Shown in pieces: positions 2,871-62,500 of a stretch of 64,000 nucleotides of DNA (the stretch's first letter is position 1; each line of letters begins with the position of its first letter). The notes under the pieces are model-generated. The model was not told the origin of the DNA, did not search any database, and saw nothing but the letters and a program-made list of their open reading frames with translations. This DNA is from Timema cristinae (Eukaryota; Arthropoda; Insecta; Phasmatodea; Timematidae). Where the stretch lies: assembly GCA_039000515.1 (NCBI GenBank), contig JBCFYV010011164.1, positions 50,383,192 to 50,447,191 of the forward strand, read 5' to 3'. The position numbers and the translations under genes were made by a program.

Positions 2871-3965
2871 CTGCTGGTTGGTAACCTCCTGGGCATAGCT
2901 GATCTAACAGCTGGTTGGTAACCTCCTGGGTCATACTTTGATCTAACAGCTGGTTGTAACCTCCTGGTCATAGATGATCTAACAGCTGGTTGGTAACCTC
3001 CTGGGTCATAGCTGATCTAACAGCTGGTTGGTAACCTCTGGGTCATAGCTGATCTAACAGCTGGTTGGTAACCTCCTGGGTCATAGCTGATCTAACAGCT
3101 GGTTGGTAACCTCCTGGGTCATAGCTGATCAAACAGCTGGTTGGTAACCTCCTGGGTCATAGTTGATCTAACAGCTGGTTAGTAACCTCCTGGGTCATAG
3201 ATGATCTAACAGCTGGTTAGTAACCTCCTGGTCATAGCTGATCTAACAGCTGGTTGGTAACCTCCTGGGTCATAGCTAATCTAACAGCTGGTTGGTAACC
3301 CCTGGGTCATAGCTGATCTAACAGCTGGTTGGTAACCTCCTGGGTCATAGCTGATCTAACAGCTGGTTGGTAACCTCCTGGGTCATAGCTGATCTAACAG
3401 TTGGTTGTAACCTCCTGGGTCATAGCTATCTAACAGCTGGTTGGTAACCTCCTGGCTCATAGCTGATCTAACAGCTGGTTGTAACCTCCTGGGTCATAGC
3501 TGATCTATACAGCTGGTTGGTAACCTCCTGGGTCATAGCTATCTAACAGCTGGTTGGTAAACTCCTGGGTCATAGCGTATCTAACAGCTGGTTGGTAACC
3601 TCCTGGGTCATAGCTGATCTAACATTGGTTAGTAACCTCCTGGGTCATAGCTGATCTAACAGCTGGTTAGTAACCTCCTGGGTCATAGTTGATCTAACAT
3701 CTGGTTGTAACCTCCTGTATAGCTGATTACACTGGTTGGTAACCTCGGTCATAGCTATATAAGTGGTTGGTAACCTCCGGGTCATTAGCTGATCTAAGCT
3801 GGTTGGTAACCTCCTGGTCATAGCTGATCTAACAGTGTTGGTAACCTCTGGTCATAGCATGATCTAACAGCTGGTTAGTAACCTCCTGGGTAATAGATGA
3901 TCTAACAGCTGGTAGGTAACCTCCTGGGTCATAGTTGATCTAACAGCTGGTTTATAACATCGTGA
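2871..3965. repeat. Minisatellite array 1, about 38-bp unit, about 28 copies
   Basis: Tandem copies of a unit containing GGTAACCTCCTGGGTCATAG followed by CTGATCTAACAGCTGGTT. The first copies are cleanest; units near 3700-3850 carry deletions. The array ends about 60 bp before the 3' splice site of the POLR1H exon at 4027. There are no unique spacers. Confidence 0.93.
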
Positions 3966-4026
3966 GTCATATGTGAGCAACTTTGCTGATTAGCTACTAT
4001 TATAATGCCCCATTTTACTGTTGTAG

Positions 4027-4246
4027 TGTTTGGAGAGATGAGAACTCATTATGTGATCAATTTCAACTTGAGCAGCCAAGTGAAGAGCAAGAAGCGTCAC
4101 TCCAGGGGCAAGCAAGAGGAACCTGAAGGACCGGTGGTGGAGAGGAGGTGCCAGCACTGTAACAACGACAAAATGTCATATGCTACGTTGCAGCTACGCT
4201 CTGCCGATGAGGGTCAGACTGTCTTCTACACGTGCACCAAGTGCAA
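4027..4246 (+). CDS. Polr1H: RNA polymerase I subunit POLR1H/RPA12, penultimate coding exon
   Basis: Encodes the C-terminal half of the small zinc-ribbon subunit of RNA polymerase I (yeast Rpa12, human POLR1H/ZNRD1), which supports RNA cleavage and proofreading on rDNA templates in the nucleolus. Seen: the exon follows ACTGTTGTAG at 4026 and ends before GTAAGT at 4247. It carries a TFIIS-like zinc ribbon with CQHC and CTKC cysteine pairs and the acidic-tip motif RSADEGQTVFYTC, which together separate it from RPB9 and RPC10. The preceding GPVVERRC also matches the POLR1H family. The N-terminal zinc ribbon (about 40 residues) is on exons not in this window. It joins in phase to 5689-5713. Confidence 0.9.
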
Positions 4247-4304
4247 GTAAGTTCTAGATCAGAGAGACTTAGCCTGGGCTGTATTAACACATAACAAACA
4301 TTGC

Positions 4305-4515
4305 GCAAGAAATCTCTTAGCGCCGTGTTTCTCTATCTGTTTTGTAGGTTAGGAATGAGTAATATTGAATTTGGAGGAAGTGTTCCCACATTTTCTTGGA
4401 GAAAGGCTGGAAAACTATTTAGGGAAAAAAAACCTTCAGTACACTCGACCAGGAGTCAAATCCTAATCTCCCCGTCTTTGTCAGTCCACTAGTGTGAGAG
4501 TGATGCATAAGACAA
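4305..4515 (-). mobile_element. Degenerate SINE-B copy
   Basis: Resembles in reverse the better-preserved SINE-B copies at 9004-9272 and 23655-23883: it shares the GGAGGAAGTG and GGAAAACTATTTAGG blocks, the CTCGACCAGGAGTCAAATCC box-B-like region and ATCTCCCCGTC. It lies in the last intron of POLR1H. Confidence 0.65.
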
Positions 4516-5688: not shown

Positions 5689-5713
5689 GTTCAAGGAAAC
5701 GGAGAACTCCTGA
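5689..5713 (+). CDS. Polr1H: POLR1H, terminal coding exon
   Basis: After the acceptor TTTCTCTTTGCAG the exon completes the split lysine codon (AA from 4246 plus G) and adds FKETENS and a TGA stop at 5711-5713. This is the expected family ending (human FQEKEDS). The exon is too short for ORF finding but is supported by phase, splice consensus and C-terminal homology. Confidence 0.88.
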
Positions 5714-8843: not shown

Positions 8844-8989
8844 AAAGAATGCGGAATTCAAACTAACCTTTATATGTTGGTCTGCTGTTCCACTTTGATC
8901 TTTTAAACCTAATTAATTAATATTAGTTGAATTATCTTCTTTGTTTTACTAATCTATTAGTTCATTATCAGAAATATAGTTACATTGAA

Positions 8990-16500: not shown

Positions 16501-19500
16501 TTGGTCTAAGAAAGTGCAAGTGATGAAGTTTGAGGTGATGTTATTGTTTTGGCCACCGTTCTTGCCACACATTTTCACCAAGTTTAGGAAATGGGAAAAC
16601 GGGGAGGAAATAAATAGGGTGCATCTTGTGGAACATCTTACATATAAACTGGTGCCAATTTTATCCTCTGGAGCAGAGTTACACTGCTTTGTTGACTTGT
16701 GTGTGTTGTCAGGGTGTGCGTGATGCGTTCACACGTCCTTGGCAGTCCTCGGTACCTCCTCTATTGGACTCTGTGGATCTGGAGGTTCCATACCCATGTG
16801 ACGAAGAAGACCACGGGATGGTATATGTGGGCTGGAGGGGCCCCTCTGCAACCAAGGAGCTATACCGCATGGTCGCTTGCTCTATCCTGTTGAAATATCT
16901 CACAGACACGGCCGTCAGTCCACTTCAGAGAGATTTTGTAGAGGTGGAGGATCCTTTCGCTAGCAAGGTAACATCAGCTAGCACCACCAAGGTTCCTTAG
17001 GAGGTTACTGTTGTAATGTCTGACTGAAGGGACTTGTGCTATAATAAAGGTTGACTGTGAACTGATGTTGTAATAATGGTGTCTAGGGGTAAGGTGTCGG
17101 ACTTCTGTGCTGGGGGTCCAGGGTCAATCCTCGGTACCGGCACAGATTTATCTGATTGTCAAACCCTTCCTTCACCTCTGACAAGACGTGTACTAACCAC
17201 AACTTGTGAATGTGTGGAATGCCAGGCCTCCACCGTGGTTCGGATCCCACGTTAAACTGTAGGTCCTTCATTTCATCTCACAATCACCCTACCATTACAC
17301 ATTAGCGTAAGTGCGTATAACCCGAACAGGTAGTAAGACGCGGTGCTAATAATAATAATCATAATTTTTAATGATGATAATAATAATAATAACCACAACA
17401 ACAATAATAATAAAAGTTTACTGAAGGGACGGGTGTTGTAATAATGGCTGACTGGGAACTTGTAGAGAAGATTGTGTTCAAACTCTCAATAACCAACAGG
17501 ACCTATGTGTAGGTGTGCTACAGTCTGACTGAGAACTCCCAGTCCATGCTCTATCTCATGTTTGAGAATGTACCCAGAGACAAGCTGGCCTTTGTGAAGA
17601 CCCGTCTCACTAAGCTACTGGAATCTCTAACAGACAGGACGGAACTCCTTAACATGACAAGGATGAGGTCTGTCATCCATCGTCACATCTTGGAGACGCT
17701 GAGTCATCTCGAAAACAGTCCGCACGAGAGTGTTGCGTTCATAGCCATCGGCGACCTCTTATTTGGGACAAGCAAGGAGGATGTGAGTCTGAGCATGTTT
17801 TGTGGCTTAGGCGGACTCGATAGTCACACACTCTAACATATGTATAAGACAGTGTAGAAATACTGAACAAAGCTGTAAAGGATAGTTAGATTAGGTCTGA
17901 ATAGTAAAACACATTCTCTCTTCATTCTTCTTTTCTTCTTAAACTCTTTACACGTCCCATTTTTTACTTCTTCACACTTCCACATTTACACATTTTTAAA
18001 TGTTCCTTGAAGACACATTTAAAACAAAAATGTGTCTTCATATGAAAGAAGGACATTTCCAAACATTTAAAACTATGTGTAAATGTGGAAGTGTGGAGAA
18101 GTGAGAATTGGGGAGTGTAAAAAGTTTAAGAAGAAATGAAGAATGAAGAGAAAATGTGTTATTTTTATTCAGACCTAATCTAACTATCCTTTCAGGTTAG
18201 TTTCCTTAACTATCAATTAAAGTGTTCACCGTAGGAATTGTTTTCTGAAAGGTCTTTTACCTACCAGAAATCTATTATATAGTGGGATATTGGTAGGAAA
18301 AAAGACCTTTCAGAGAGTAATTCCTACCGTGAATGTAGTATATTTTACATTATTGTATACTGTTTCTACACTGTCTTATTATATTTTTCCAAGCCATTAG
18401 GCACCAATTCATTTTATTATTTTTACTATATTTAAAATTTTATTTTGAATTGGATAAAAAATTATTATTAAAATTAATGAAATACAGCTAGTGTGAGAAA
18501 ATTTAAGTTTATTTTATTTTATATATAAAACATTACATGTAGTTAAAAAAACTTATTATTTATAGCAAAATAGTGATATTTTACAAGTGTTGGCAACCCA
18601 ACATGTGATTTTTCAACCGCCATTCATGTAAAAAGCTGTGGTGAGTATATTACTATCTCTAAGATTTCTTCTTCCTTTGAAATGTTTCACAGAAGCAAAG
18701 GAACTTGGATATTTTGAAGTGTTGCGCACACACCCTTAGTAACTAATAAATATAAATTTTAAAAACCCAAAACCTAACTAACATGGCAGTTACAAAAGTC
18801 AGGGAGTTTAAATAAAGTCAATGGTTTGATAAAAAAAAAGTGTTGATTAGAACAGATTTTTTTAATACATACTATCGGTAGATATATATTGTGTAGTATA
18901 TTGTGTTTATAAACACATTTTCTAGTCAATCAATTATTAATTATATAACTTAAGTGAATAGGAATCACATTATGTTCAAATATATGATTAAAAACTAGAA
19001 TTAACAATAAAAATGTGTTGAACATATCTTAAAAAATAAAAAACATAATATTTATGTAGGCTTATTCATATGTATTTACATTTTCTAATGTGTTGCTGTA
19101 CAACCAAATTCGATGATGATTCATTTTAAAAGTGCTCACACTTATTAAGACTGTGAAATAAATCGTCAGGAACATGTTAGACGAATCAAAGACCACAACA
19201 TATTATATTAAACATGGGCAACCTTTTTTTAAGGCTTAGGGTGTTCTTCTGCGTCATTCTCTTCGTCCTCGTTGATGTCTGAAGTGAGCCTACTATGTCG
19301 TCTGTCAAGTATTCTAAAACAATTATGTTGTTGTCAAGAAACTTCCTTCTTCCTCTTACGACATCTCTGTTCTATTTTTTATCACTTGTTTTACTTGTGG
19401 TATCATCATTTCAGGGTTGGGCGGAGGTAAATCTCAATTTGTCTTGAAAAAAATTTGATACAGGTCTATAGAATTTTTTGCCTATATTATGTATAAAAAC

Positions 19501-22500
19501 TTTTTTTATATGTAATGTCATGGGGATTCACTTAAATTTTGATATATATTAGGGGTCTGCGAACTTGGGTTTTTTCATTCAAGTCGAGTATTTCTAAAAG
19601 CTCCAGAGTTCGAGTATTAAAATTCAAATAAAAATCTAATAAAAAAATAATTAAAATGGTTTCAACACTCGTGTTTTTAAGGACATTAAAATAACACTCA
19701 CAATTACAAAAATAAGTTAATTTTATTATAAAAGAAATTTATAAAACTAAAGAAAAAAGAAAAACAAACTACTAAGAGTAAATTTGATGAAGAAAGCCTA
19801 CCTAGGGAAAGAGGAAAAATGTGGGAAGAATCCAATGCACTTATTAACTAATTTTAAACTTAAATTATTAAACAAAACTTGGAGAAATTTTGTTTCTCAA
19901 CGTTAGTCACTGCATTGTCTAGATATGCTCAGCAGTCCTAACATGAGATGGTTGTGTTTGTGTTATAACACATTTACACAGGGATGCCAATGATAAATAT
20001 AGAGGCCATTAGGGTTTGTTTTCAAAATATGTGATCACTGTAATAAACGGAAAAATTGCCATTCACCAAGAAAAATGGTAAAAATGCTAAGCCGAGAATT
20101 TTTTTCTAAATACCGTCTGGAAAACCTGAAAAAACTTGAAAACTTATTAATTAAAGTTTTGTACCCACCCTGATTAACAACTGAAAAGAACAGGAACCTT
20201 TGAATGTTTGTTTAGAAAACCGGAACAACTACCAGAATAGACACATTTTAACTACGTGTTTAGCTCTCACATTTCCCTCCACCATAAAAATCATGACATA
20301 TCTACACGATATTTAGAGGGTCCTCCGCACCAAGGAGCTAATAACTGTGTGTCTTATATCTCCAGTTTAACCACCGTCTGAACCAAGTGGAAGATCTCCG
20401 TCTCCTGGAGAAAGAACCGGAGGAGTTCTGGGTGTCTCTCCTGAAGCAGTACCTGGTGGAGGCCCCTAGCGTTGTCGTTAGAGGGGTTCCCAGCACCAAG
20501 GAGCAGCAAGAGATGACTGACAAAGAGAAGAAGAGAGTTGAAGAGCAGAGAGCAAAGTTGGGAGAGGATGGGCTCAAGAGAAGGCTCGACTTCTTCAGGA
20601 AGCAATGGCACAGAATGAGGTCAGGTTTATATCAACCTGGTCGGGCTCAAACCAGGCTCCAGGCAATGTATTTTAGAAGTCTTATTATTGACATAAAAAA
20701 TACTATGAAATATTTATCAAAAAATTATGTGTCAGAGGACAAATTTCAAATAGGGTATTTCTTTTCCAATCAAATTGGTACTTCTGTAGATGCATTGATC
20801 TCTCTGATAAAAATAACACTTTTATTTAGTTACATCTTAATTACTAACAGACTATTTACAAGCGTGGGACAGACGGGAATAAAAAAGATTTTTTTAAACT
20901 CCAAGATATATCAACATTGAACTGTCTAAAGTTTGATTCACACGTTCGCTTAAAATAGAGAACAGAATTTTCTTAAGTGGTGCAGCGATTTACACGCTGT
21001 ATGTTGACCCATGATGCATAGCAACGCTAACTTAAAATAGCTGATTATCAACCTAGTTTATTTTCTAGTGGCTAAACATATATTTATATCATACTCCTGA
21101 TGTATGTTTTCAAATTATAGTGCCGTGTCATGGTACAATATATTATATTGTGCCGTGTCATGGTACAATATATTATATTGATACACACTTTCCATTACTG
21201 GGTTATTTCAAATCTCCTTACAACAGCCAATAAAGTTACTGCTTGCTTCTGGTTGTAGAGCACATGCATGGCTCAGATTTGATTGGCTCTCCGGTGCCGA
21301 ACATCTAGGGCAGAGCGAACAAGATAGAGATGAGTTGAACTTTAACAGAACAGCTCACACTGACGTACTGTATCTTACTGTAACTCCAAGGATATAGCTG
21401 TGAGCTTAACCTCAGGGATATAGCTGTGAGCTTAACCTCAGGGATATAGCTGTGAGCTTAACCTCAGGGATATAGCTGTGAGCTTAACCTCAGGGATATA
21501 GCTGTGAGTGTAACCTCAGGGATATAGCTGTGAGTGTAACCTCAGGGATATAGCTGTGAGTGTAACCTCGGGGATATAGCTGTGAGCGTAACCCCGGGGA
21601 TATAGCTGTCAGCATAACTCTAGGGATATAGCTGTGAGCGTAACCCCGGGATATAGTTGTGAGCGTAACCCCGGGGATATAGCTGTGAGCGTAACCCCAA
21701 GGATATAGCTGTGAGCGTAACCCCAAGGATATAGCTGTGAGCGTAACCCCGGGGATATAGCTGTGAGCGTAACCCCGGGGATATAGCTGTGAGCGTAACC
21801 CCGGGGATATAGCTGTGAGCGTAACCCCGGGGATATAGCTGTGAGCGTAACCCCGGGGATATAGCTGTGAGCGTAACCCCGGGGATATAGCTGTGAGCGT
21901 AACCCCGAGGATATAGCTGTGAGCGTAACCTCAGCGATATAGCTGTGAGTGTAACCTCAGCGATATAGCTGTGAGTGTAACCTCAGCGATATAGCTGTGA
22001 GCATAACCCTGGGGATATAGCTGTGAGCGTAACCCCGGGGATATAACTCCTGTAACTCTGCTTGTTACAGAAACCTCCACCAAAGCACATGTTGACGTCT
22101 GTTCCAATCCCCAGCATCTCCTCCATCAATTTCCATCCTCTGAAGTTCTACACAGCAGAGAGTTCTGAGCAGCACCCAAGATTCCACCTGCCCCAGGCGC
22201 CTGTCTATATGCACCTGGACCACCTGCATACTAACTTTGTCTATGTGAGTGACACCATGTATTGTTAACTTGAGTTTTGTTTACGTTCACTTTTTGAACT
22301 GACTGATTATATCAGCACATGACTTATAAACCATCTTAAATCTAGAACAGACACAATATCCAAGTCCCGGCCATTAATTTATCACTTTGAAATGGGAAAC
22401 CCACATTTCACCGATGATAAATTTTTCGGCCGTTTCACTAATTGAACTCAGGCCCCTTAAGTCAGTAGACAGATTCGCTACCAACAGAGCCAAGGTGTCG

Positions 22501-25500: not shown

Positions 25501-28500
25501 AAGAATACCTTTAAAAAAATCCTACAGAATTAAGACAATATGAAAATGAAAAAAAAAGTTGAATCTCCAAAATCCAAGACCAGTCCTTCAAAAAAGGAAT
25601 CAACTCACTATGGAGGAAGTCCTATTCAAGAAAACAAAACTTGCTTCTTATGATCCCAAGGCACAGTCCATCACTAAAAGTATTGCTCTCATGTTGAAAA
25701 AAAGCCTTCTTTCTTATACTTTTGTTGAAGAATCAGGAGTGGAGTTTATGGCTAATCCTAACATTGCGCCTCAATACGAAATTCCATATCGAACAACTTT
25801 TTCAACCAATTATGTACCAAAACTCTTTGCGGATACTCAGATAAAAATGAAAGGTGTCCTCAAATTAGACTTACTGTCTCTTCTTTCCCTAAGTATCACT
25901 TCAGATGGTTGGACATCTGCGGCTGTTGACAAGTATGTGAGTGTAACTTGCCATTATTTAACAACTGACTTTACTTACAACTCCTTCACAATGGACATCA
26001 TTTTAATGAATGAATGAATATTATCACTGCAATCAAACTAACATTGGAGGAATGGGAAATACCAGTACAAGAATCAAGCATACCAATCTACTGCGTCACT
26101 GATAATGGTGCTAATTTCAATTTATTTTATTCATCGGCAGTGCTTTGCCCATACTTTACAGAATGCTATATCTGATTCAAAAAGAGAAACTCCGGAGTTA
26201 TCACTCTATTATCAAAATGCAAGGCAATAGTGGGACACTACCAACGCAGCAGCTCAGCTAAACAGAGACTTTATAATATTCAAAAACAATTAAATTTGAG
26301 ACAGCTGGATGTAATTCAATATGTTGACACAAGATGGTCTAGTGAACATGCCATGTTAAAGAGGATGATTGAAATGCAGAGCTGGCCAGTCCACATAACA
26401 CCAGTGACTTGACTATGCTTACTGCACAAGATTGGAGACACATCAATGTTACAACCCCTTGCTGAAGCAACAGAGGAGTTAAGTGGTGACAACTACCCAA
26501 ATTCATCAATGGTGATTCCTGTTCTACATTGTTTGGAGTCACACTTGAATAAATGTATAGTAAAGAAAATTGAGGGAACCACGTTTGCCAGGAATTTATC
26601 TAAATCAATCAAATCAAAGTTCGGAGTGTATGAAGAAGACAAAGTATACCTTCTATCCATGCTTACTGATCCACGTTTTCGTGGTGTGCTTGTTAACAAA
26701 ATTGTTGCTGTAGCAAATCTTCAAGCTGAGCTAAACAAGTATCGAAGCTTTGAAACACAGTCGTTAGAAGAACAACCACTTCTTCTCTTTGGTCTGCAAT
26801 TGATGATCTACCAAACGAATCTCGCTTTGATTCAGCAACTGGTGAAATTGAGAGATACTTAGGGGAGAAACGTATTCCCCGAAGAGAAGACCCTTTGATT
26901 TGATGGAAGGAAAAAGGACAGCATACTTACCTGACCGAATCTAGCTAAGGTAGCAACTACGTACCTGGGTATACCTGCTACCCAGGTCAGTAGTGAGCGA
27001 TTGTTCTCCACGGCAGGCAATATAGTTAGGGAAAGGCGTCAAAATTTTCTTCTGGCACACATTCAACAGCTTGTGTTTCTCCATAATAATTTGTAAATTT
27101 GGCCCAATTTATGACTCAATTTTTTCTTTTTCAATTCTTGTATGTGCGTGATGTTTTTTTTATATGTTAGTATTTTAAAGAGTTTCTTATTAGATGTCTA
27201 TTATGATTTTATTTGTTTTTTATAAAGCTTAAAACAAAATAATTACTAATGCAAGTGCAATATTATAATTTAGGTTGTGTTTATTTTGTTTTCTCAAACA
27301 TAAATAAATTCAGACATGTCAGCATATGAATATAGTGTGCTTTGACTTTTCTGTACACCTTTCTCTTGACCTAGATGTTCATACTGTTTGATTAAAAAAA
27401 ATTAAAAGTAGTGTTAAGTGGCAACAACAAAAATCCTAGGTAGCTTCGACTTCGACTTTTCTTCTCAAGTTTCAAGCTTCGCTTCGCATTTAAAAAGTGG
27501 CCTTTGCACACCCATTGTAGAATATTTTATTAAAACAACCTTAGAATTGTTGGACAAAAACAGTTACAATCATTTATATAACACTCTCATTAATAAAGTG
27601 TCTGTAATTAATTACAAAATTATTTATAAAAAAAAAGTGAAGTTATAACTAATTTTACACAAAACTTGTTTAATCCAAAAATTGAATATTGCGATTCACT
27701 CTCAGACATTTTAATCACAAAATATCGATACGTTTAACCTCCAAGAACTTCAACAGCAGACTGATCGATGTATTTTTCCCGCACGAACAATCATCTCGTC
27801 GCTAGAAACAAGCGACTGTTCTAAACCAGTGGCGCGGTAATTTTACTGCGCTATATTTTCTCTCCTTGTGTGAACGGTAACATTTGAACCAATGTATCTC
27901 AGTGGATAAAATTTGTGTGACAAAAAACTTGGCGCGATAAAATACCTCTCATGTGAAAGTGTACTTATTATTCATTTGATGTTTTCCAGATGTTTGTGCT
28001 GTTGAACACAAGTGGATTGAGCACCGCCTTACGCCCGTACCTGCCGCTGTTCCTAGAGTCTCTGTTGGAGCTTCCTATCCTTAGAGGAGACACCCTCGTA
28101 CCCTACGAACAAGTGGTAGCACAACTTGAGACGGACACTATTTCTGTGTCGGCCAGCATTGGTCTGGAGAACAGTTCTCGTTTCCATTGCGGGGCGTTCA
28201 GTCACACCGCCGTGCTAATGTTACAGGTAACACGACTATGCACAAGGACCGAATGCCAATGACGACAGAACGGTGGAGGGAGGGTATACCTTTACCCCCT
28301 AGAATAAATGTTGCTCCCCTTCCATTCCAAATAGATCCTGGAGGCATCCAATTTTCAACCATTTGTTTGGGCGGGTCCTCAAATCCCTCTTTGACTAGGA
28401 AGTTAAAGACCCTTCCCCCCAAAAATATTGTATTTCTGACTGCACTCCACACAAATAAGGTTCAATCGTTACTGGTTATGCCAAATATTTTAGCAAATAC

Positions 28501-31500
28501 ATCATCATCAACTGTCTTTCAGCCAATGACCGGGTCAGTTTAGTAAAATGCCACCATTCTTCCTCCTTTACTTGCTTCCAATCTTCTCCTCTTCTCACAT
28601 GCGCCCTTTCTACTCTCGGCTCCTCCCAGCTCTTCCTTGGTTTCCCTTGTGGTTTCACATGACCATACCATATGACCCCTTACTTCATATTCAAACAAAT
28701 GTTGTGTCTTATTGGCCACATGAGTTTCATTGACTGCTAGTTGTAGCTGGAGTGGCCAACGTCTGTGTACTGGGGCAGTAAGTCTGTGTTATTGTCTGTA
28801 GCTGGAGCCGGCCAAGTACAGTCTGTGTTATTGTCTGTAGCTGGAGCCGGCCAAGTACAGTCTGTGTTATTGTCTGTAGCTGGAGGTGGCCAAGTACAGT
28901 ATGTGTTATTGTCAGTAGCTGGAGCCGGCCAAGTACAGTCTGTGTTATTGTCAGTAGCTGGAGCCGGCCAAGTACAGTCTGTGTTATTGTCTGTAGCTGG
29001 AGCCGGCCAAGTACAGTCTGTGTTATTGTCTGTAGCTGGAGCCGGCCAAGTACAGTCTGTGTTATTGTCTGTAGCTGGAGCCGGCCAAGTACAGTCTGTG
29101 TTATTGTCTGTAGCTGGAGCCGGCCAAGTACAGTCTGTGTTATTGTCTGTTGCTGGAGCCGGCCAAGTACAGTCTGTGTTATTGTCTGTAGCTGGAGGCA
29201 GCCAAGTACAGTCTGTGTTATTGTCTGTAGCTGGAGCCGGCCAAGTACAGTAGATGTGTCACGTGGATCAGAGAGCTGTTATACCAGACACAGTTCACGG
29301 TCGAACGTCTGCGCATCCTGGCGTCCAAGATTGCTAACGATGTGGCTCAAGTGAAGAGGAAAGGCAACAAGGTGGTGTCCGACCTCATGAAGGGTTTGGT
29401 CTACAATCAAGGTGAATACGTCATTTATATTTTAAACACCTCTCATTTTGGTCCAATTCATATTTACCATCACAGTTATGTTGAGGATGAATGCTAATCA
29501 ACATAGCTCTTAAACTAAGTTTGGGGTTGTAAAATGTGGATGGTCGCTGACCCTGCTGTTTGGGTTGAATTAATGGAATTTAGTGATTGAGTGTGAGAGA
29601 TGGACGCTTCTAGGCAGTTTGTATGGCTTGCTAGAGAGCCAGAGGAGAGGAATTGGGGGTCTGAATGGCTCATGGGCGCTAGAGAGCCAGAGGAGAGGAA
29701 TTGGGGGTCTGAATGGCTCATGGGCGCTAGAGAGCCAGAGGAGAGGAATTGGGGGTCTGAATGGCTCATGGGCGCTAGAGAGCCAGAGGAGAGGAATTGG
29801 GGGTCTGAATGGCTCATGGGCGCTAGAGAGCCAGAGGAGAGGAATTGGGGGTCTGAATGGCTCATGGGCGCTAGAGAGCCAGAGGAGAGGAATTGGGGGT
29901 CTGAATGGCTCATGGGCGCTAGAGAGCCAGAGGAGAGGAATTGGGGGTCTGAATGGCTCATGGGCGCTAGAGAGCCAGAGGAGAGGAATTGGGGGTCTGA
30001 ATGGCTCATGGGCGCTAGAGAGCCAGAGGAGAGGAATTGGGGGTCTGAATGGCTCATGGGCGCTAGAGAGCCAGAGGAGAGGAATTGGGGGTCTAAATGG
30101 CTCATGGGCACTAGAGAGCCAGAGGAGAGGAATTGGGGGTCTGAATGGCTCATGGGCGCTAGAGAGCCAGAGGAGAAGACAGTAACTACTACATGTATGT
30201 TCATGCAGACAGTAACCACTACTCCTCATCAATGCTGCGTCAACACAAGTTTCTCACCTCCTTGTTGGAACGTCTCGAGTCTCCTGCCATGTCCCAGAAG
30301 GTGCTGCAGGAGTTGGAGGAGGTGCGAGCAGTCCTCACACAACCAGCCAACATAGTGGTGCATCTTGCGGCTGACATGGACAAGCTTCCTGGTGACCCGG
30401 CGGAGCCTTGGGCCCAGATGTTGCCCTCAGGAGTGAACCCCAAGAGATAAAACTGGCAGTGACTCCAGACTGGGCCTTGCTCACCCCACCGTGTGAGCAG
30501 AAGAACGGCAGCTGTGTGGTAAGACTTGCACCAAGATGGGTACCTTAGAGGTACTTGCTGTAACACAAGTTTTGGTAGCATTTTATTTCAGAAGGTGAAC
30601 GCAGAAATCTCCTGGCCTGAACATGACAATTCTTTTAACTTTAGTGATCCATTGTTTTGGTTCTTGTTCAAGGTTTGGCATCGTTATCGTTGGATACAGT
30701 GAATTAGGACTGATTCGGCTACACCAGCAATATCTAACAACAACAAAATTTATAACCATCTCTGGCTAAGCCCAGAGCATTTTCCTGAATTCTCATACTG
30801 GATCAGCGACGTTGAAAGTAATAAGTTGCAGGCATTTTGTAAAGTGTGCAAAAAAATTATAAACCTAAGTAAAATGGGAAAGCAAGCATTAGCTTCCCAT
30901 GCAAAAGGACCAACTCATATCAAAACTCTTGAAACTGACAAATCAACGCTCATCGAGCTCTCCTTTTCAACAGAATCTCTGCCACACAAAGACATTCTAC
31001 CTAGTAGTGATTCGGCTGGTTACTCGAAGAGTTTTTCTGTTTCATCGGAAATTGTAAAGCCGCAGAAGGAAACTGTTGCCAAAAGTGAAATTAGTGTAGT
31101 GACTCGAAGAAACCATAACACTTTTGTTATTAAAGATGATATAACTAAGGCAGAAGTCATTTGGGCTATGCAAGTTGTTGACCAAAAAAAAGTTTCAATT
31201 CGTGCAATAATTTAAGTACAATTTTTCAGTTGATGTTTCCCGAGTGTTCCATTGCCAATGCCTTTACTCTTGGTGGAGACAAGGCTGCATACTTCATTGT
31301 GCATGGCTTGGCTCCATTCTTCCGTAACAATTTACTGGACCGCCTAAAATCATGTAACAACTTTGTAATTTGTTTTGATGAGCCATTGAATAAAGTTATT
31401 CAAAGAGGTCAAATGGACATTGTATTCAGATTCTAGGACAAGGAAAATAATAGTCGTCATTTGTTGCTTAAACAGTGTTATTTTCGATAGAAGCATCGTT

Positions 31501-34101: not shown

Positions 34102-34201
34102 NNNNNNNNNNNNNNNNNNNNNNNNNNNNNNNNNNNNNNNNNNNNNNNNNNNNNNNNNNNNNNNNNNNNNNNNNNNNNNNNNNNNNNNNNNNNNNNNNNN
34201 N
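34102..34201. other. Assembly gap (100 N)
   Basis: Exactly 100 N, the usual placeholder for a gap of unknown size. The M16 C-terminal exon(s) and the first half of Lis-1 are missing on its two sides. Confidence 0.99.
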
Positions 34202-36364: not shown

Positions 36365-36449
36365 AGGCAGGTTCATTTATAAACCTGTTGATAGCTTAAC
36401 AAAATTTTAAAATGAAAATCAAATTTCACATTAATAACATCATTATTAT

Positions 36450-38453: not shown

Positions 38454-38728
38454 GGTGACCTGGTGGTTTAGAGGTAAGGTGTTAGACCGCTGTGTTAGGG
38501 ATCCGGGGTTCATTCCTCGGTCCCGGCATAAAGTTATCTGATTGCCAAACCCTTCATCTCTGACAAGACGTGTATTAATCACAACTTGTGAATGTGTGGA
38601 ATGCCAGGCCTCCACCGTGGTTCGGATCCCACGTTAAACTGTAGGTCCTCCATTTCTTCTCACAATCACTTTACAATTACATATTGGCGTAAGTGCGTAT
38701 AGCCCGAACAGGTAGTAAGATGTGGTGC

Positions 38729-38732
<4 letters not shown>
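38454..38732 (+). mobile_element. SINE-A, near-complete copy
   Basis: Head GGTGACCTGGTGGTTTAGGG, B-box GGTTCATTCCTCGG, body CCTCCACCGTGGTTCGGATC and tail CCCGAACAGGTAGTAAGATG. Nearly identical to 49188-49487 over the aligned body. Followed by an expanded microsatellite tail. Confidence 0.92.
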
Positions 38733-38792
<60 letters not shown>

Positions 38793-38798
38793 GTAATA

Positions 38799-38842
<44 letters not shown>

Positions 38843-38893
38843 AAATGATGATGATGATGATGATAATAATAAAATAATAATAATAATAAATTA
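38733..38893. repeat. TAA / GAT trinucleotide microsatellite
   Basis: The (TAA)n tail of the SINE is extended into a block of (GAT)n and then TAA repeats again, about 160 bp of trinucleotide sequence. Confidence 0.95.
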
Positions 38894-44000: not shown

Positions 44001-47000
44001 TTTCTGGTTTTGGTGAGGTTGGGCTTTTCTATTGGGTAGATTGTGGCTTGGTCTTAGGGTCATAATCATAAACCCAGCTCTCATCACCACTGATAACCCT
44101 GGACAAGAAGGTCGCATCATCGGAGACGACTTGACGAAGCTCATTGCAGACGTTGATGCATTTCTGCTTCCGGGCAGCCATTGCAGACGTTGATGCATTG
44201 CTGCTTCCGGGCAGCCATTGCAGACGTTGATGCATTGCTGCTTCCGGGCAGCTGTCAGGATCCTTGGCCCAAATTTGGCTGCAACATGGTGCATGCCCAA
44301 GTCAGAATTTGTTGGCATGTTCTAAAACTAATTTCCATCTCCTCAACAAGATCTTGAATGGTCTGTTGTCAATTAAGACGAATGATCTGTTGAAGTTGGT
44401 TAACCATGGTGGGTGTTGCGCAGCTGCTGGGTTTCCCAATGGATGTCCGGCCAACCTTGAACTGGGCATGTTATTGAAACACTTGTGTACGGTCCATGCT
44501 GTCTTCGTCACACTTTTCCAAGATACACACAAAATTTGACACACAATCACAGCTTGTTTTTCAGATTCATCATGAAAATCACCACATGCCTTGTACATGA
44601 CTCCAAAAAAGGACGTGAAGATTCAGCACAACCATCCAGATGCGTGAAACTTGGTACACTGACCCATAAGACATACTAGTGTTACCGTCTAAAGTTGCAT
44701 AGCGCTACTACAACTGCTGTCCAGATGGCAGCACTAATCCGGACATTTTTTGATACCCCCTCGTACACACTCTAAGAAAACAAAATTTTGCTTTATAATT
44801 TTTTATGGCAAGGATATTTTGCTCATTTGTTATACTACATAACTTTTTTTTGAAGAATGTACTTTAAATCACGGTTCTAAATTAAATATTTATCTTTCTT
44901 TCACAGGTTTGGGACATAGGCACAGGATTGTGTCTTTTTACCCTTGTTGGCCATGACAACTGGGTGCGTGGTGTTGTGTTCCACCCAGGAGGCAAGTTCA
45001 TCATCAGTGCCAGTGATGACAAAACAGTGCGGGTGTGGGACACTCGCAACAAGCGCTGTATGAAGAGTCTGGAGGCACATCAACACTTCTGCACCACACT
45101 GGGTCAGTTGAAACTTTACTTCTGATTGTAACATCTAGGCGATATTGTTTAATAATGTTAACATGTGCACAGCATCTTAAATTAAAACATTGAGTTACTT
45201 AACGTGAACTTTCTAAACTGATTATAATAAGCACACGATAGAAAATAAATCGCAGAACCAACACAACTCTTAGCTCCAAGGCCATTAATGTGAGAATCCC
45301 CACTTTCATTTGTTGAGTAAACAAATCAATTATGTCAAGAAATTGAACCTGGGACTTTTAGCTCAATGGACAAACACACCACCGGGTGTTACATATACAT
45401 TCTTTACATTACTATTAAAGTTTGGTCAAATCCTCTATTTATGAAAAATAATCTTAATTTTATCTACAAATCTAAAATTCAAGTAAAGATTACAAACATT
45501 AGTAGAATATAAATAAAACTTAATACAATATAAAATTGACTTAGTATCTACAGTCTATCCTGTGTAGGAGTGGTGGTAACTGACAGCCAACAAAAGTTAG
45601 ATCTACTCTCATGTATCCATTGCTGTCACTTTTGGCAGCCAAAACTTTCACAACAAACAAGTTTTTTTATAATTATTTTATTTTAATCAGCTTTTACATT
45701 ATTGAAACACTTATGAAAATACGTTTTGATGTGGGTTTTTTTTGTGTAAGTGGCCGGCATCTGTGGCTCACTTAAAATTCTTTACAAATGAAAGTTTTTA
45801 AAAGGCTGCATCCTATTCATAGGTAAAAATTGCAAAGTCAGATGAAATTAGGACAGTTAATGACATCATATAAGCCCTAATCAGTTGTGTTCATGTGCAT
45901 GTGCTTACAAAATAAAAACATATTTTGAAAGTAATAATTTGTTTAGCTCTTTCCAAATTAAAATTATTTATTTTATAATTTATGGTAGCCAGCTATAAGA
46001 AGATAAAAGGTGTGAATATAATACTTTTTGATTTATAATTTCATCCACTATACTATCTCACATATTCCATAACCGCAAAACAAAAAATAAAGTTTTTTTT
46101 GCTCTTTCAATTAGTTATTAAAAAGCCGATTATATAATAATTCTTAGGGAAGTATCATTAGAAGGGTTTAATAAAACTTTTCAATAATATTTTTATTACT
46201 AAAAAATTAATTATAGATTGAACATATAACATATAACCCGAACAAGTAGTGAAACATGATTCCAAAAAGAAATTAAAGATGGGTTGAATCCACTACACTA
46301 TGAATCCAAATCTCCAACTTACCTTCAAATTCTGAATCTGAATCTTTTATTTAAAAAAACAAAAAAACTATGAACATAATAGGAAATAGAACTAAAGAAT
46401 AACAGAAAATAGAAATATTAACTAAATGTTAACATACATTCTTTCTTAAAATCCATTAATTTTAACATTCATACATTCATTTAAGTGTTAAATTACTTGT
46501 CTGGGGTTTAGTTGTTAAGTTCATCTTATAATTATTATACATAGTTTTTAACCACCAATAATAAATAAGCAATATTAGAGCTCTAAAATAAATTTCACTT
46601 GAAAAATGAAGAAAAAAAACACTATAGTCTCGGTTAACACTAGTGACTTTCATCAACCAATGTTTGCAATAAACATCCTCTGCTAGCTGTCAGTTATCAC
46701 CACTCCTAAGTGAATGCAGGGCAGCCACAGACACGGAAAATATGGAATAGTCAGGGAATTTGAAAACTGGCAAAAAAATCAGGGAAATTGTCCATGAAAC
46801 AGAGGAACTTAGGCATTAACTCAAAATAAGATTATATTTAGTTAATCCCTCTTCAATATTATAAACGGCAATTGAGGTCAGGTAAACTAATAATCAAACT
46901 TGGATACATTAGGCAATTTTTCATGATTGACCAAGCGGTTCTGACCAGAGTGGTTTTTCATAAAAAAAATGGCTATAGAGAAGAGTAAATATAACAGCTG

Positions 47001-50000
47001 GTAGATTAATTTATGTAAACCTACATGTACTGCAAGTCAACAAAAAATGCTCTATTTAATCTAATTCTTAGTTAGATTGGTGCTTTTTTGACTATGTCTA
47101 ATATTTAAATAACACCTACCAAGCTAAACCTATCTTCCCAAAAATAAGCTACAGAAAACATGAATATGTATGTATGAATAAATACTGCTAGATCATATTA
47201 TGATACTCTCTTTTATCCATAACCAAACTGTTTTAATTACCTTTCACAAATAATAAATAATTATAGATGGGCTGCATCCACTATTTTAGGAATCTGAATC
47301 TCCAATTAACTTTTGAATCTGAATCCAAATCTTAAAAAAGAAACTACGAACATTAAAGGAAATATAAATATAATATAATAATAGAAAATACATATATGTA
47401 CTATATTTGGAGGAAGGTCCAGGAAAGGTCGATAGAAACACCTAAAAGGAAAAAAACAGGATGGGACTTCATATTTTCTTGCAGCTTGGTGCATTGTTAG
47501 ACAGCCAAGGCCTTACACATATCTTCTTTAGTATGTTTTGTTGCTCGATTTGGCTTTTTTTTTATAATTCACAACCATTTGGAGTGTTTTTCTTCTCAAT
47601 TAGTATTTATTAAACCATGGAAAGATAAAAATAAGATTTATGCATTTGTTAAAAGCAAGCGAAATAATATTAAATACAAACTAAAAGTGATAGAATTAAA
47701 ACAAAAAAGAGTAAAAAAAACAACCTGGGATAAATGCAACCACGGCTGTAAATTTTTACAGGAAAATGTTAAAGCAAAATAAAGCACATGACATAAATCC
47801 ACCCATCAAAATGATCTAGAGTAGGGGTCTGCGAGCTTGGGTTTTTTCATTTGAGTCGAGTATTTCTAAAAGCTCCCGAGTTTGAGTTTATTCATAATTT
47901 TAAAATGTTAAAAAGTGGGCTTATATTAAAAGTTAAAACACATGTTCTTAAAATAAGAATGACACCCATTTTTAAACATAATAAAAACTTTTGGAAAAAA
48001 AAGTTAAACAAATGGAAATATCAGTTTTTAAATTAGAAATAACACTTATAAAATATGATTTAAAAATAAGAACAGCACTCGAATAAAAATCTAATGAAAA
48101 ATAATTAAAATGGTTCAAACGCCCATGCCTTTAAGGACATTAAAATTACACTAACAATTATATAAAAAAAGTTAATAAAATGAATAATTGCATGATGGCT
48201 TGGAAATGTATAACAAGACAGTGTAGAAACACTGTACAGTGATGTAAAGTAAGTGATAGTGAAGGAAGCCAATCTGAAAGGATTGTTAGATTAGGCCGAG
48301 ATAGGAACAAAACACTTCTCCCTTCATGTTTTCTTAAACTATTACACTTTCCACTTCTTCAAAACTTCCACAGTTGCACATCAGTTTGAATTTTCGGGAA
48401 TATTACTTTTTCATTAATGTCTTTTCATATGAAAAATAAATATTTATGAAAATTCAAAACAATGTACAACTGTGGAAGTTTGAAAAGGTGGGAAGTGTAA
48501 AGGTGTAGAAAGAAAATAGATAAGTGTTTTTGTTCCTATCTAGGCCTAACCTAACTATCCCTTCAGGTTGGCTTCCTTCATTATCACTTACTTTACATCA
48601 CTGTACAGTGTTTCTACACTGTCTTGTTCAAAAGTTAATAAAATTGACGTGTTAATAAGCTGATATTATTCCAAAATATGCTTCAGTAACTTAATTTACT
48701 CTATAAGAAAACATAAGAATCATAAACAATTAGAAATTTGAAGTGTTTCATATTTTGTTTATTATTCCTTAGTGTAATCGTGCATGATCACATCTTCTGT
48801 TCCATTTCCATTCCTATATGCAGTTGTACAGGATCTCGTTTGACATTATTTTATTGAGAAATTTACTTCAATTCAATTTTAATGCTTATAAAAGTTGATG
48901 CTGATATTTTAAAATTAAAAATGACTATAAAATAATATTTCTAGCAAACAATATGAAACAGTAAATGCTTTTTTAATATAAATGTGGTAAGTTTGGTAAA
49001 ATATGTATTGCAATAAATAAGGTCAACATTGATTTTAAACAGGTTAACTAACATTCTCTAACTAAATAGTAACTAAAACAGAGCTAGTTTTGTAGCTAAA
49101 CGTATTAATACAAGTTTTAAATATCTTTAGTTTGAAAACATTTAATAGAATAATAAATTCTTGATATTACATTTTTAATTTAACATAGGTGACCTGGTGG
49201 TCTAGGGGTAAGGTTTCAGACTTCTATGCTGGCGGCCGGGGTTCAATCCTCGGTCCCGGCGCAGATTTATCTGATTTCTAAACCCTTCCTTCACCTCTGA
49301 CAAGTTATCTTGTGAATGTGGGGAATGCCAGACCTCCACCGTGGTTCGGATTCCACGTTAAACTGTAGGTCCTCCATTTCATCTCACAATTACCCTACCA
49401 TTACACATTAGCGTAAGTGCGTATAACCCGAACAGGTAGTAAGATGCGGTGCTAATAATAATAATAATAATAATAATAATTTAACATAAATTATTATTTT
49501 AGAAAGGGACCAGGTAAAGGTAGTAAAAAAATCATTCAATTATTTAGTAATCTTCTTAGCCATTTTTATTTTCATTGCTTTTTCATGGCAATACAAGTAA
49601 ATAACTTCACTGAAGTTTAATTCAATATGGATGACAATATTGAATAAATTTAACAGTCAAATGTGGTTTTAAAGCGCTGTTACTTTATTAATGTGAAAAT
49701 TGAAATTAATATTTAACAATTTAAGTAACTGAATGATTTATAAGTGGAAATTATAATATTATCTCAATTAAATAGACTATGCTTATTATTTCATTTAAAA
49801 AATTGATTATTAAGTACATCAAGTGGAGGCTAGAAATTGATGAGCCTAGAAAACTTTCGATCTCGAGCTCTAGCTTAAGCTAGAGCTCGGCTCAAAGCTC
49901 GAAATACGAGTACTCGCAGAGCCCTAATCTAGAGTCATAAAAACCAATAGCCTAGGTGATAAGGTTCAAGAATAAGGAGGCTGTAATCTTTAGGTTCGGC

Positions 50001-54290: not shown

Positions 54291-54390
54291 NNNNNNNNNN
54301 NNNNNNNNNNNNNNNNNNNNNNNNNNNNNNNNNNNNNNNNNNNNNNNNNNNNNNNNNNNNNNNNNNNNNNNNNNNNNNNNNNNNNNNNNN
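54291..54390. other. Assembly gap (100 N)
   Basis: Exactly 100 N. The minisatellite directly to its right probably caused the assembly break. Confidence 0.99.
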
Positions 54391-54830
54391 TCCTGGTTTG
54401 TAAACAATGTATGTTGACGAACATTACTCCTGGTTGTAAACAATGTATGCTGACGAACATTACTCCTGGTTGTAAACAATGTATGCTGACCAACATTACT
54501 CCTGGTTGTAAACAATGTATGCTGACGAACATTACTCCTGGTTGTAAACAATGTATGCTGACGAACATTACTCCTGGTTTTGTAAACAATTTATACTGAC
54601 GAACATTACTCCTGGTTTTGTAAACAATGTATGTTGACGAACATTACTCCTGGTTGTAAACAATGTATGCTGACGAACATTACTCCTGGTTGTAAACAAT
54701 GCATGCTGACATGAACTAACGTTGACTGATAAACACCATACTGATTTCATAATATTCCTGATCCTGGTTGATAAACAATTTACCTGATTTAACATTATTC
54801 CTGGTTCATGAAACAATATACATTTAATTT
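54391..54830. repeat. Minisatellite array 5, about 36-bp unit
   Basis: Tandem ACTCCTGGTTGTAAACAATG plus TATGCTGACGAACATT, about nine good copies to 54710, then degenerate ones to about 54830. It starts at the gap edge, so its true length is unknown. Confidence 0.92.
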
Positions 54831-55064
54831 ACAAAATATCACTCTTGAATTAGGGTTGTTCGTTCTTCACTAACACCAAAATATTCCATCATGTTTGCTG
54901 ATTCTTAAGAAATGTCGTATATCCCCTATAGTTTGTCACCCCCCCAAGTTTAATGTTAACATTTATACACTGGAGTTTAGAAAGTAAAGTACTCAAGTAG
55001 CACAGAATTACGACGACCCAGTACCCCGGGCGGAGAAAGTGGGTCATCTTCTTTGACAACAACC

Positions 55065-55165
55065 TCTCCGTGTATAGTCTGTGACATCTCGTGTGGCTAG
55101 TACATGATCTAACTCTCCGTGTATAGTCTGTGACATCTCGTGTGGCTAGTACATGATCTAACTCT
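55065..55165. repeat. 49-bp direct duplication
   Basis: CTCTCCGTGTATAGTCTGTG ... ACATGATCTAA occurs twice in a row. Confidence 0.9.
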
Positions 55166-56298
55166 CCTTGTTGTCACCGCTAGCTGTGTCTCTATCCAAT
55201 AGCAGCAGTTGTCGCTAAGCTAGCTGTGTCTCTATCCAATAGCAGCAGTTGTCACCGCTAACTGTGTCTCTATCCAATAGCAGTATTCACTAAGCTAGCT
55301 GTGTCTATCCAATAGCAGCAGTTGTCACCGCTAGCTGTGGTTTTATTCAATAGCAGCAGTTGTCACCGCTAGCTGTGTATCTATCCAATAGCAGCAGTTG
55401 TCACCGCTAGCTGTGTTTTATCCAATTGCAGCAGTTGTCGCTAAGCTGTGTCTCTATCCAATAGCAGCAGTTGTCTCCGCTAACTGTGTATCTATCCAAT
55501 AGCAGCAATTGTCACCGCTGTGTATCTATCCAATAGCAGCAGTTGTCACCGCTAGCTGTGTTTTATCCAATTGCAGCAGTTGTCGCTAAGCTAACTGTGT
55601 CTCTATCCAATAGCAGCAGTTGTCACCGCTAACTGTGTCTCTAGCCAATAGCAGCAATTGTCACCGCTAGCTGTGTATCTATACAATAGCAGCAGTTGTC
55701 ACCGCTAACTGTGTCTCTATCCAATAGCAGCAATTGTCACCGCTAGCTGTGTATCTATCCAATAGCAGCAGTTGTCACTAAGCTAGCTGTGTCTCTATCC
55801 AATAGCAGCAGTTGTCACCGCTAGCTGTGTATCTATCCAATAGCAGCAGTTGTCACCGCTGACTGTGTATCTATCCAATAGCAGTAGTTGTCACCGCTAA
55901 CTGTGTCTCTATCCAATAGCAGCAATTGTCACCGCTAACTGTGTCTCTATCCAATAGCAGCAGTTGTCACTAAGCTAACTGTGTATCTATCCAATAGCAG
56001 CAGTTGTCACCGCTAACTGTGTCTCTATCCAATAGCAGCAGCTGTCACCGCTATCTGTGTATCTATCCAATAGCAGCAGTTGTCACCGCTAACTGTGGCT
56101 CTATCCAATAGCATCAGTTGTCACCGCTAGCCGTGTATCTATCCAATAGCAGCCGTTGTCACCGCTAACTGTGTCTCTATCCAATAGCAGCAGTTGTCAC
56201 CTCTAACTGTGGCTCTATCCAATAGCAGCAGTTGTCACCGCTAGCTGTGTATCTATCCAATAGCAGCCGTTGTCACCGCTAGCTGTGTATCTGTACAG
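55166..56298. repeat. Minisatellite array 6, about 38-bp unit, about 30 copies, reaching the FATP acceptor
   Basis: Unit CGCTAGCTGTGTATCTATCC plus AATAGCAGCAGTTGTCAC, with CTAAGCTAGCTG variants. The last unit degrades into the real 3' splice site: GCTGTGTATCTGTACAG at 56282-56298 corresponds to unit GCTGTGTATCTATCCAATAGCAG. Confidence 0.94.
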
Positions 56299-56552
56299 AA
56301 GGAGCACGCTGACGCCGAACTGGCGACTATGGTATGTGACACCCGCACACCAGTCAGACGGTCCGTGGTTCGAGCCACAGTCATAGCAGCCAAGGTGACG
56401 CTAGTGATGCTGTGTGCCGGACTCGTCTGGTTCTTCATGGGCTGGTTGTTCCTGATTCAGTTGATGCTGGTGGCTCTGGTAGCCTATCTGGCGGCTGGCA
56501 GGGGCTTTAGATGGTTCTATGTCGCCTTCAGGACCTTGCCTCGTGACGTTAC
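56299..56552 (+). CDS. Fatp: FATP exon 1 (membrane anchor)
   Basis: After TGTACAG the exon has 30 open nt, then ATG 56329 and MVCDTRTPVRRSVVRATVIA, a run of hydrophobic residues (LVMLCAGLVWFFMGWLFLIQ onward) and GFRWFYVAFRTLPRDV. Donor TTAC/GTAAGC at 56553 leaves AC, completed to Thr by exon 2. Start at 56329 chosen as first Met; the upstream 5' exon was not identified. Confidence 0.88.
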
Positions 56553-59500: not shown

Positions 59501-62500
59501 CACCCCAACAAGGAGTGCTTCATCTTTGAGGACACCGAGTGGACCTTCTCTCAGGTACTTCACTTCACACGTGGTATATGGTACCACATTCATCGTGTGC
59601 TCCAGTTCACACTCTCATTCTCAGACTAGAGTATACAGTTCATATAAATGGGACTTGAAAGTATGAGAGAAACAAGGGGTGATGTTTTCAGGTCGAAGAG
59701 TATAGTAACAAGGTGGCCAACGTGTTCAGGAACCACGGGTACCGCAAGGGAGACGTTGTGGCCCTCATGATGGAAAACAGACCAGAATTTGTGTGTCTGT
59801 GGCTGGGCCTGTCCAAGCTGGGCGTTATCGTGCCTCTCATCAACTACAACCTACGGGAGCATCCCCTCATTCACTCCATCACGGTGGCTCACTCACAGGC
59901 GCTCATCTTTGGCAGCGAACTATTCTCAGGTGGGTAAATACTGGGTACGAGACAATCCTTTCATCTATTCCTTCGCTCCCAGGACCTAGCTACTCTAAGG
60001 TGGGTAAATACTGGGTACGATACAATCCTTTCATCTATTCCTTCACTCCCAGGCCCTAGCTACTCTAAGGTGGGTAAATACTGGGAGCGATACAATCCTT
60101 TCATCTATTCCTTCGCTCCCAGGCCCTAGCTACTCTAAGGTGGGCAAATACTGGGTACGATACAATCCTTTCATCTATTCCTTCGCTCCCAGGCCCTAGC
60201 TACTCTAAGGTGGGTAAATACTGGGAGCGATACAATCCTTTCATCTATTCCTTCGCTCCCAGGCCCTAGCTACTCTAAGGTGGGTAAATACTGGGTACGA
60301 TACAATCCTTTCATCTATTCCTTCGCTCCCAGGCCCTAGCTACTCTAAGGTGGGTAAATACTGGGAGCGATACAATCCTTTCATCTATTCCTTCGCTCCC
60401 AGGCCCTAGCTACTCTAAGGTGGGTAAATACTGGGTACAATACAATCCTTTCATCTATTCCTTCGCTCCCAGGCCCTAGCTACTCTAAGGTGGGTAAATA
60501 CTGGGTACGATACAATCCTTTCATCTATTCCTTCGCTCCCAGGCCCTAGCTACTCTAAGGTGGGTAAATACTGGGTACGATACAATCCTTTCATCTATTC
60601 CTTCGCTCCCAGGCCCTAGCTACTCTAAGGTGGGTAAATACTGGGAGCGATACAATCCTTTCATCTATTCCTTCGCTCCCAGGCCCTAGCTACTCTAAGG
60701 TGGGTAAATACTGGGAGCGATACAATCCTTTCATCTATTCCTTCGCTCCCAGGCCCTAGCTACTCTAAGGTGGGTAAATACTGGGTACGATACAATCCTT
60801 TCATTTATTCCTTCGCTCCCAGGCCCTAGCTACTCTAAGGTGGGTAAATACTGGGAGCGATACAATCCTTTCATCTATTCCTTCGCTCCCAGGCCCTAGC
60901 TACTCTAAGGTGGGTAAATACTGGGTACGATACAATCCTTTCATTTATTCCTTCGCTCCCAGGCCCTAGCTACTCTCAGGTGGGTAAATACTGGGTACAA
61001 TACAATCCTTTCATCTATTCCTTCGCTCCCAGGCCCTAGCTACTCTAAGGTGGGTAAATACTGGGTACAATACAATCCTTTCATTTATTCCTTCGCTCCC
61101 AGGCCCTAGCTACTCTCAGGTGGGTAAATACTGGGTACAATACAATCCTTTCATTTATTCCTTCGCTCCCAGGCCCTAGCTACTCTCAGGTGGGTAAATA
61201 CTGGGTACAATACAATCCTTTCATTTATTCCTTCGCTCCCAGGCCCTAGCTACTCTCAGGTGGGTAAATACTGGGTACAATACAATCCTTTCATTTATTC
61301 CTTCGCTCCCAGGCCCTAGCTACTCTCAGGTGGGTAAATACTGGGTACAATACAATCCTTTCATCTATTCCTTCGCTCCCAGGCCCTAGCTACTCTCAGG
61401 TGGGTAAATACTGGGTATGAGATAATTTGTTATTATTAGATATGTCTTTTTACAGGTTCATTTCCTTTTCCAAATTGAGTCCTCTAGCATGTCCTACCGG
61501 AGGCTGCCTTTTTTTATCTCTTGAAACTCCTTTACCTGTTTGAGGTCATGTCAGTTGCTTCTGTGGTCTTCTTGTTTGCCCTCATATTTTCCTCATGCCT
61601 TCTATGACATCATTAACGATTTTTTTTTTTTTTTGTAAATATTGAAACTTGCATTTAGTTTTCAAACTTGGGGATAAATGGCTACAAGTTATTGCACTAA
61701 AATTTACTCAACTCTTTTTTATTTTGACACATGCCGTGTTTCTCCTTGACGATTTCGCGGGTAGGGTAAGTTGGAAGAGGTCTTGACGTCATCGTCTATG
61801 GTCCGGGTCCAAGTCCAGGGATAGATAAGTATGGTCCTGTTGTTACATTTTCTACAGGATTTAACTCGGATATTTTTATGCGATTGAGTGTGAATTAAAG
61901 GAAAGCTTTTATTTTACCCGTCCCTTGAGCTTTGAATCTGTAACATGAGCCATTTCCCAGCATCCTACGACTGTTCCAAATCACACAATTTACAACTGAA
62001 TATTAAAACTGTGGATTAGACCCTCAATCCTTCGAATCCTTAAGGGTATTCAAGAAATTAATATCATATCGGAGATTAATTAATTTTTTTCCTAAATTTT
62101 AAATTGTAATTTGTTTTAGAGCCCCAACACAATTATAGGAAAAAATATTAAACAACCAGACTCCAGAACAGTAATTTAACACTTAACGGAATATATTAAT
62201 GTTATAATGACCTAATTATAGCAAAAATTGTAAACATTTAATGACTTTATTTTCTATCATTCCATTATATTTATATCTCCTCTTATTCATTATTTTTCCC
62301 ATGATTTGGTTTCTCTGTCGGTAGTGTGTTTGTCTACTAAGTCTCGGGTCTCGGGTTTCATTCCTGACATGGCCGAAAAAATTTATCATTGGTGAATTGT
62401 GGGTTTACCCTTTCACAATGATAAATTAACAGCCAGGGACTGGATGTTGTGCCTGTCCTAGTCTTAGGTTAGATTATAAGACACATGAAGCTATGACAGG

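Follow-up and report, generated by a model that had tools for sequence, protein, structure and literature searches.

Tandem repeats that span exon–intron boundaries have been described in lancelets under the name of mirages (PMC3087553, PMC3902484). They occur at both kinds of boundary, with units of 10-72 bp in Adh3 and of 150-160 bp in globin genes (PMC3087553), and TnC and PGBD5 are further examples (PMC3902484). Splicing is described there as seemingly unaffected, the mechanism is called unclear, and a spread of the phenomenon is suspected for cephalochordates (PMC3087553, PMC3902484). The arrays of Timema cristinae presented here have units within the size range of lancelet Adh3 (PMC3087553). 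The likeness to the mirages of Adh3, the globins BflGb6/BflGb9, TnC and PGBD5 extends to the minisatellite-like structure, to the occurrence at 5′ and 3′ boundaries and to units that are unrelated between loci. Unlike the lancelet mirages, the Timema arrays are found in an insect, with many copies (12-41) in several genes, and arrays that abut a junction but do not span it are common too.

In human, a minisatellite at the donor of IFI6 (6-16) reportedly lies at the splice junction and supplies extra splice sites. Internal tandem repeats are also found at human exon–intron boundaries in segmental duplications (PMC2812944). The human cases share with Timema a minisatellite at a splice junction, but they are reported as confined to recent paralogs or to one gene, and the transcript is modified. 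Tandem repeats with dual-specific AGGT splice sites, such as those of UBC, hold splice sites inside coding repeats (PMC10809524). They carry AGGT within the tandem units, like array 7 below, but the introns described for them lie inside coding repeats, and the AGGT of Timema would be a candidate site. Intron gain in Drosophila likewise involves tandem duplication with splice-site-like sequence, but there one copy becomes a new intron (PMC2891723), whereas the Timema arrays multiply a junction that already exists and show no new intron. Among the matches listed, in a collection with few subscription papers, we found no account of mirages in an insect. The preliminary description of this locus knew of no named process for such arrays; the junction-spanning ones are best read as mirages in an insect, and the phenomenon is already named, with precedents.

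The window, that is, the whole stretch of 64,000 nucleotides that was analysed, comes from an assembly of 1.29 Gb in 7605 contigs and contains two gaps of 100 N each. It carries POLR1H, M16 (C05D11.1-like), a LIS1-like gene and FATP, all on the + strand. Periplaneta and Timema proteins served as tblastn queries to check the exons; those of LIS1 were located via an approximate human sequence. The best protein match of M16 came from T. monikensis (65% of the query aligned, at 94% identity), and the second half of the gene matched proteins of T. monikensis and T. cristinae. FATP matched proteins of T. genevievae (92%) and T. bartmani (91%). Our independent junction list contained 20 acceptors and 18 donors, the same total of 38 as counted before. 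The FATP exon previously labelled exon 1 does not begin the coding sequence, since MCNGNETVNKVK precedes it in the proteins of T. genevievae and T. bartmani.

Some features of the gene models are recorded here in their own right. M16 exons 7 (20366-20619) and 11 (30209-30518) each read as if one base short compared with Timema proteins, which may be due to either sequencing error or a decaying gene. The final M16 exons (beyond Periplaneta residue 896) and the first LIS1 exons gave no tblastn match in the window; they may have been lost in the gap 34102-34201 or in a misjoin. Residues 16-44 of the T. bartmani FATP model match 54988-55071, and a 49-bp unit repeated 2.2 times (55064-55171) starts where that model ends an extra upstream exon. 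This exon may not be real in the window, because an in-frame TGA lies in the 54988-55071 stretch. Three elements with a tRNA-like start and a (TAA)n end (~17080-17400, 38455-38890, 49187-49480) are presumably tRNA-derived SINEs.

TRF called seven long arrays (Table 1). The number agrees with the preliminary description, but their lengths run from 320 to 1498 bp, not from 400 to 1500 bp, array 5 being the shortest. Six of the seven lie 0-56 bp from one of the 38 junctions, five of them at an acceptor and one at a donor, and the remaining array does begin at an assembly gap, both as described before. The clustering also stood up as exceeding chance: with arrays collapsed to points, six of seven within 70 bp has P=5.7e-8. 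When arrays were placed at random with a coding overlap of at most 25 nt, 0/20,000 placements reached this number; when they were free to fall on exons, 123/20,000 did. All ten TRF arrays (at least 100 bp, period at least 15) gave 6/10 within 70 bp (P=1.5e-6, points), and in the four host introns with known ends all four arrays were this close (P=0.003). The three shorter TRF arrays (39319, 44142 and 56881), like array 5, are near none of the 38 listed junctions. The one at 44142-44252, a 37-bp unit repeated three times, lies within minus-strand sequence that looks like a mariner-type transposase.

Table 1. Tandem arrays and associated junction features in the window and in the myosin sample
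Feature	Position	Strand	Unit and copies	Distance to nearest junction (bp)	Relation to junction
Array 1	2873-3971	.	38 bp × 29.7	56	ends before POLR1H acceptor 4027; abuts
Array 2	21380-22045	.	26 bp × 25.7	26	ends before M16 exon 8 acceptor 22071; abuts
Array 3	28777-29251	+	39 bp × 12.2	0	spans 3′ splice site, M16 exon 10
Array 4	29630-30176	.	48 bp × 11.4, copies 99% identical	33	ends before M16 exon 11 acceptor; abuts
Array 5	54391-54710	.	36 bp × 8.8	1589	starts at assembly gap
Array 6	55170-56292	.	38 bp × 29.6	7	ends before FATP acceptor 56299
Array 7	59920-61417	+	70 bp × 21.4	0	spans 5′ splice site of FATP exon ending 59929
M16 exon 10	29231-29411	+			first 21 nt = last exon copy of array 3
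Extra exon 11 junction copy	30179-30208	+	30 bp		14 nt like exon start + 16 nt intron end
L002			38 bp and 60 bp		two spanning arrays at donors
L024/L029			60 bp, unit of L002 (paralog)		donor; 50 nt exon HSWIEQQILEANPILE + gtgagtcatt
L026			52 bp		spanning array at donor
L013			28 bp		spanning array at acceptor
L024 (two), L006, L015, L027					abutting myosin arrays

GC composition was rejected as the cause of the clustering, since at each GC cut-off only 4-7% of positions fall within the same distance of a junction. More broadly, chance, base composition or short-intron geometry might place arrays near exons. The 123 placements obtained with exon overlap allowed would fit this view, as would the non-significant outcome, given below, when arrays are placed at random in the short stretches around myosin exons, but the GC-matched positions, the result in the four known host introns and the exon sequence within units, which is unexpected by chance, make it highly improbable. 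No relation can be seen by eye among the seven consensus units, in agreement with the earlier statement that they differ completely. The spreading of one repeat family, introner or transposon was rejected on this ground; the only unit seen to be common to different loci is that of two paralogous myosin genes.

The unit of array 3 consists of 18 nt of intron end followed by 21 nt of coding exon (LEPAKYS). The latter match exon 10 exactly, a result that 0/300 shuffles equalled. The exon 10 junction, LMLQ|LEPAKYSRCVTW, is present in T. monikensis and T. cristinae proteins, and the gene models of both show a normal junction there; LQLEPAKY in cockroach and katydid proteins likewise places the start of exon 10 at 29231. 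Since LEPAKYS belongs to conserved coding sequence, array 3 derives from the exon and not the reverse. The AG is retained in 11/12 copies of array 3 (this tally and that for array 7 were taken from the copy listing, the fuzzy copy count having caught only part of each array). As the sequence reads, use of any array 3 acceptor but the last would bring in an in-frame TAG.

Array 7 repeats a donor. Its unit opens with 10 nt from the end of this FATP exon, joined at the donor to 60 nt. The junction, GSELLS|DIRDV, is found in the sister species T. genevievae and T. bartmani, with a normal junction in the sister gene models. The GT is retained in 22/22 copies, and AGGT is present in every one. The exon itself reads CTATTC (GSELFS); the other 21 copies read CTACTC, coding for Leu-Leu as in GSELLS of the two sister species, and therefore look like a preserved older state of the exon. 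Acceptor-like sites with a score of at least 5 occur in arrays 3 and 7 and in none of the other five arrays. The left part of unit 7 was also considered as diverged exon and set aside as suggestive only, as 137/2000 shuffles and 53/4754 window pieces scored as high.

For the abutting arrays the picture differs. Units 1, 2 and 4 showed no similarity above shuffles to their adjacent exons, and none of them holds exon and intron across a junction, as the units of arrays 3 and 7 and of five myosin arrays do. The acceptor next to array 1 is supported by the T. monikensis protein P0014. That next to array 6 is real, with KEHADAELATMVCD following upstream coding sequence in the T. genevievae and T. 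bartmani proteins. Array 6 may or may not span its junction: in an anchored, exon-only comparison with its exon, the fraction of shuffles that attained its score was 0.0025 in one register and 0.0375 in the second, but without anchoring this exon ranked third of 20. We scanned the 38 junctions for intron-side copies under three settings, with control pairs that share flanks with neighbouring junctions, so that the fractions are conservative. The scan flagged 29231, 30209, 56299 and 59929, as well as 17513 in one setting at 0.047. Thus the earlier proposal that junctions seed tandem growth holds for arrays 3 and 7, which were seeded there as the junction lies inside their units; arrays 1, 2 and 4, which abut a junction and have units unlike the exon, may have been seeded there too.

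One junction can be compared between species. Directly before the exon 11 acceptor of M16, beside the unrelated 48-bp array 4, the window carries a single extra 30-bp copy of the junction. In the T. monikensis gene model P0241, exon 10 is followed by 190 residues, 19 copies of a ten-residue unit (for example DSNYYTCVHV), before exon 11 begins at its normal place. The same 30-bp unit is thus present in 19 copies in the T. monikensis model and in one extra copy in the window, and the same junction differs between the species. The T. cristinae protein model has no exon 11 unit at this place, though it also omits the last six residues of exon 10. The T. monikensis model treats the array as coding, which speaks against silent removal. 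P0241 is chimeric, because its first 113 residues come from 25610-25945 inside M16 intron 8 (93% match), a stretch we take to be the remnant of a hAT-type transposon. We infer that the model derives from the published Timema genomes, which were assembled from Illumina data and annotated with the help of RNA evidence (PMC8865771).

The copy numbers at exon 11 bear on two further explanations. The arrays could be selected regulators of splicing or expression, in keeping with the minisatellite that in C. elegans is over-represented near multiply spliced exons (PMC4039745). Units without a common sequence, and 19 copies in T. monikensis against one extra in the window, render this highly improbable. 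An assembly artefact would fit the two 100-N gaps and the one-base deficits of M16 exons 7 and 11, but a separate T. monikensis record has such an array, the copies carry ordered internal variants and one array is common to two paralogous loci. We consider an artefact the least probable of all the explanations.

To look beyond the window, we searched the genome with a myosin-head model, which gave 81 exon matches. The best 30 of the 81 were taken with 1.5-kb flanks, chosen without regard to arrays, and merged into 22 stretches (87,793 bp, 46 exon matches). Nineteen arrays were found in 9/22 stretches, the other 13 containing none. For ten of the 19, an exon match is no more than 40 bp away (P=4e-9, points), the exon edges being HMM match edges that are only near the true splice sites; leaving out one of the two paralogous arrays gave 9/18 (P=5e-8, points). 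When the arrays were placed at random at full length within the myosin stretches, their proximity to exons did not reach significance (P 0.06-0.13 at 0-40 bp), since an array of up to 1.5 kb will often come close to an exon in a stretch of 3 kb. The enrichment that the preliminary description had extended to the genome recurs around myosin exons, but its significance depends on how the arrays are placed. Five of the ten near-exon arrays have junction-spanning units. Together with the window, acceptors are involved in array 3 and L013, and donors in array 7, L002 (two), L026 and L029.

For comparison, the same filter was applied to 20 background stretches, taken at round-number positions of four large contigs (200 kb in all, 5.5 kb of it N). 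They yielded 15 arrays, 6 with at least five copies, against 19 and 16, respectively, in the myosin sample. Three kinesin exons with 300-bp flanks showed no array. At another place (G000:C100:36483603-36486861), four matches to one kinesin exon region are spaced at ~1 kb, which would put this exon inside a tandem repeat of roughly 1 kb. On contigs C100, C7605, C7598 and C2250, several of the myosin matches belong to open frames of unusual length (766-1503 aa) that cross introns; these are perhaps stop-free arrays.

Splice-site words were counted genome-wide. The donor word AGGTRAGT occurs three times at 20-50-bp spacing in 4061 places, compared with 1758 for the reversed word, while single occurrences number 79,061 and 90,759, respectively. 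The donor word is thus 2.65-fold over-represented in tandem, in counts of copies, not of independent arrays (the listed places fall in about six arrays), to which no P value is attached. The weak acceptor word TTTCAG showed no tandem excess, with a tandem ratio of 1.18 and a single ratio of 1.32. Mirages in Timema are apparently frequent and seem to occur on a larger scale than in the few lancelet genes found described.

Our main reading is that the junction-spanning arrays are mirages that arise from short tandem duplications straddling a junction and then expand or contract (probability about 0.72). The first step would be a tandem duplication of ~28-70 bp across the splice site, which may originate where short direct repeats allow slippage or repair between them. 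Short homologies can be read at the duplication borders in three cases only: 3 nt in array 3, 7 nt in L013 and 4 nt in L029. Later growth and shrinkage would proceed as in any minisatellite, enlargement probably occurring by unequal exchange. Splicing would normally take the site that is continuous with the exon body, as the sister-species gene models suggest; the other copies would stay intronic and the protein would be unchanged. The abutting arrays probably have the same origin: either both breakpoints lay a short way into the intron, or the arrays are old mirages with a diverged exon part. The lack of exon similarity in units 1, 2 and 4, and the distance of array 5 from known junctions, argue against the main reading. 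So do the myosin stretches and kinesin exons that have no array, the non-significant full-length placement and the acceptor word without tandem excess.

The bias toward junctions may come about if DNA at exon edges is duplicated frequently and selection spares only those copies that cross a junction. Alternatively, splice junctions could be true mutational hot spots, where R-loops linked to transcription or splicing, or polymerase pausing at exon edges, break the DNA, and spanning and abutting arrays would stem from one process. The clustering of the abutting arrays at 7-56 bp would agree with this, as would the two unrelated repeats at the exon 11 junction and the array there that differs between species, but the three short window arrays lie away from junctions. 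We regard hot spots as unlikely, and lean toward exon-edge duplication combined with a selection filter as the source of the bias.

The scale of the process in Timema can be stated only more tentatively. There is, in our estimate, an even chance that mirages form genome-wide, with hundreds to thousands of junctions seeded and turnover at the same junction between species. Exon edges would then be a main birthplace of minisatellites and would steadily provide spare splice sites as well as new introns and, at times, inserts in coding sequence. Ten Timema species, sexual and parthenogenetic, have been sequenced (PMC8865771). An insect genome with many mirages makes it testable where minisatellites are born and whether exon edges are mutational hot spots. 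In Timema it can also be tested how splicing chooses among up to ~40 tandem sites, and whether copies turn into new introns.
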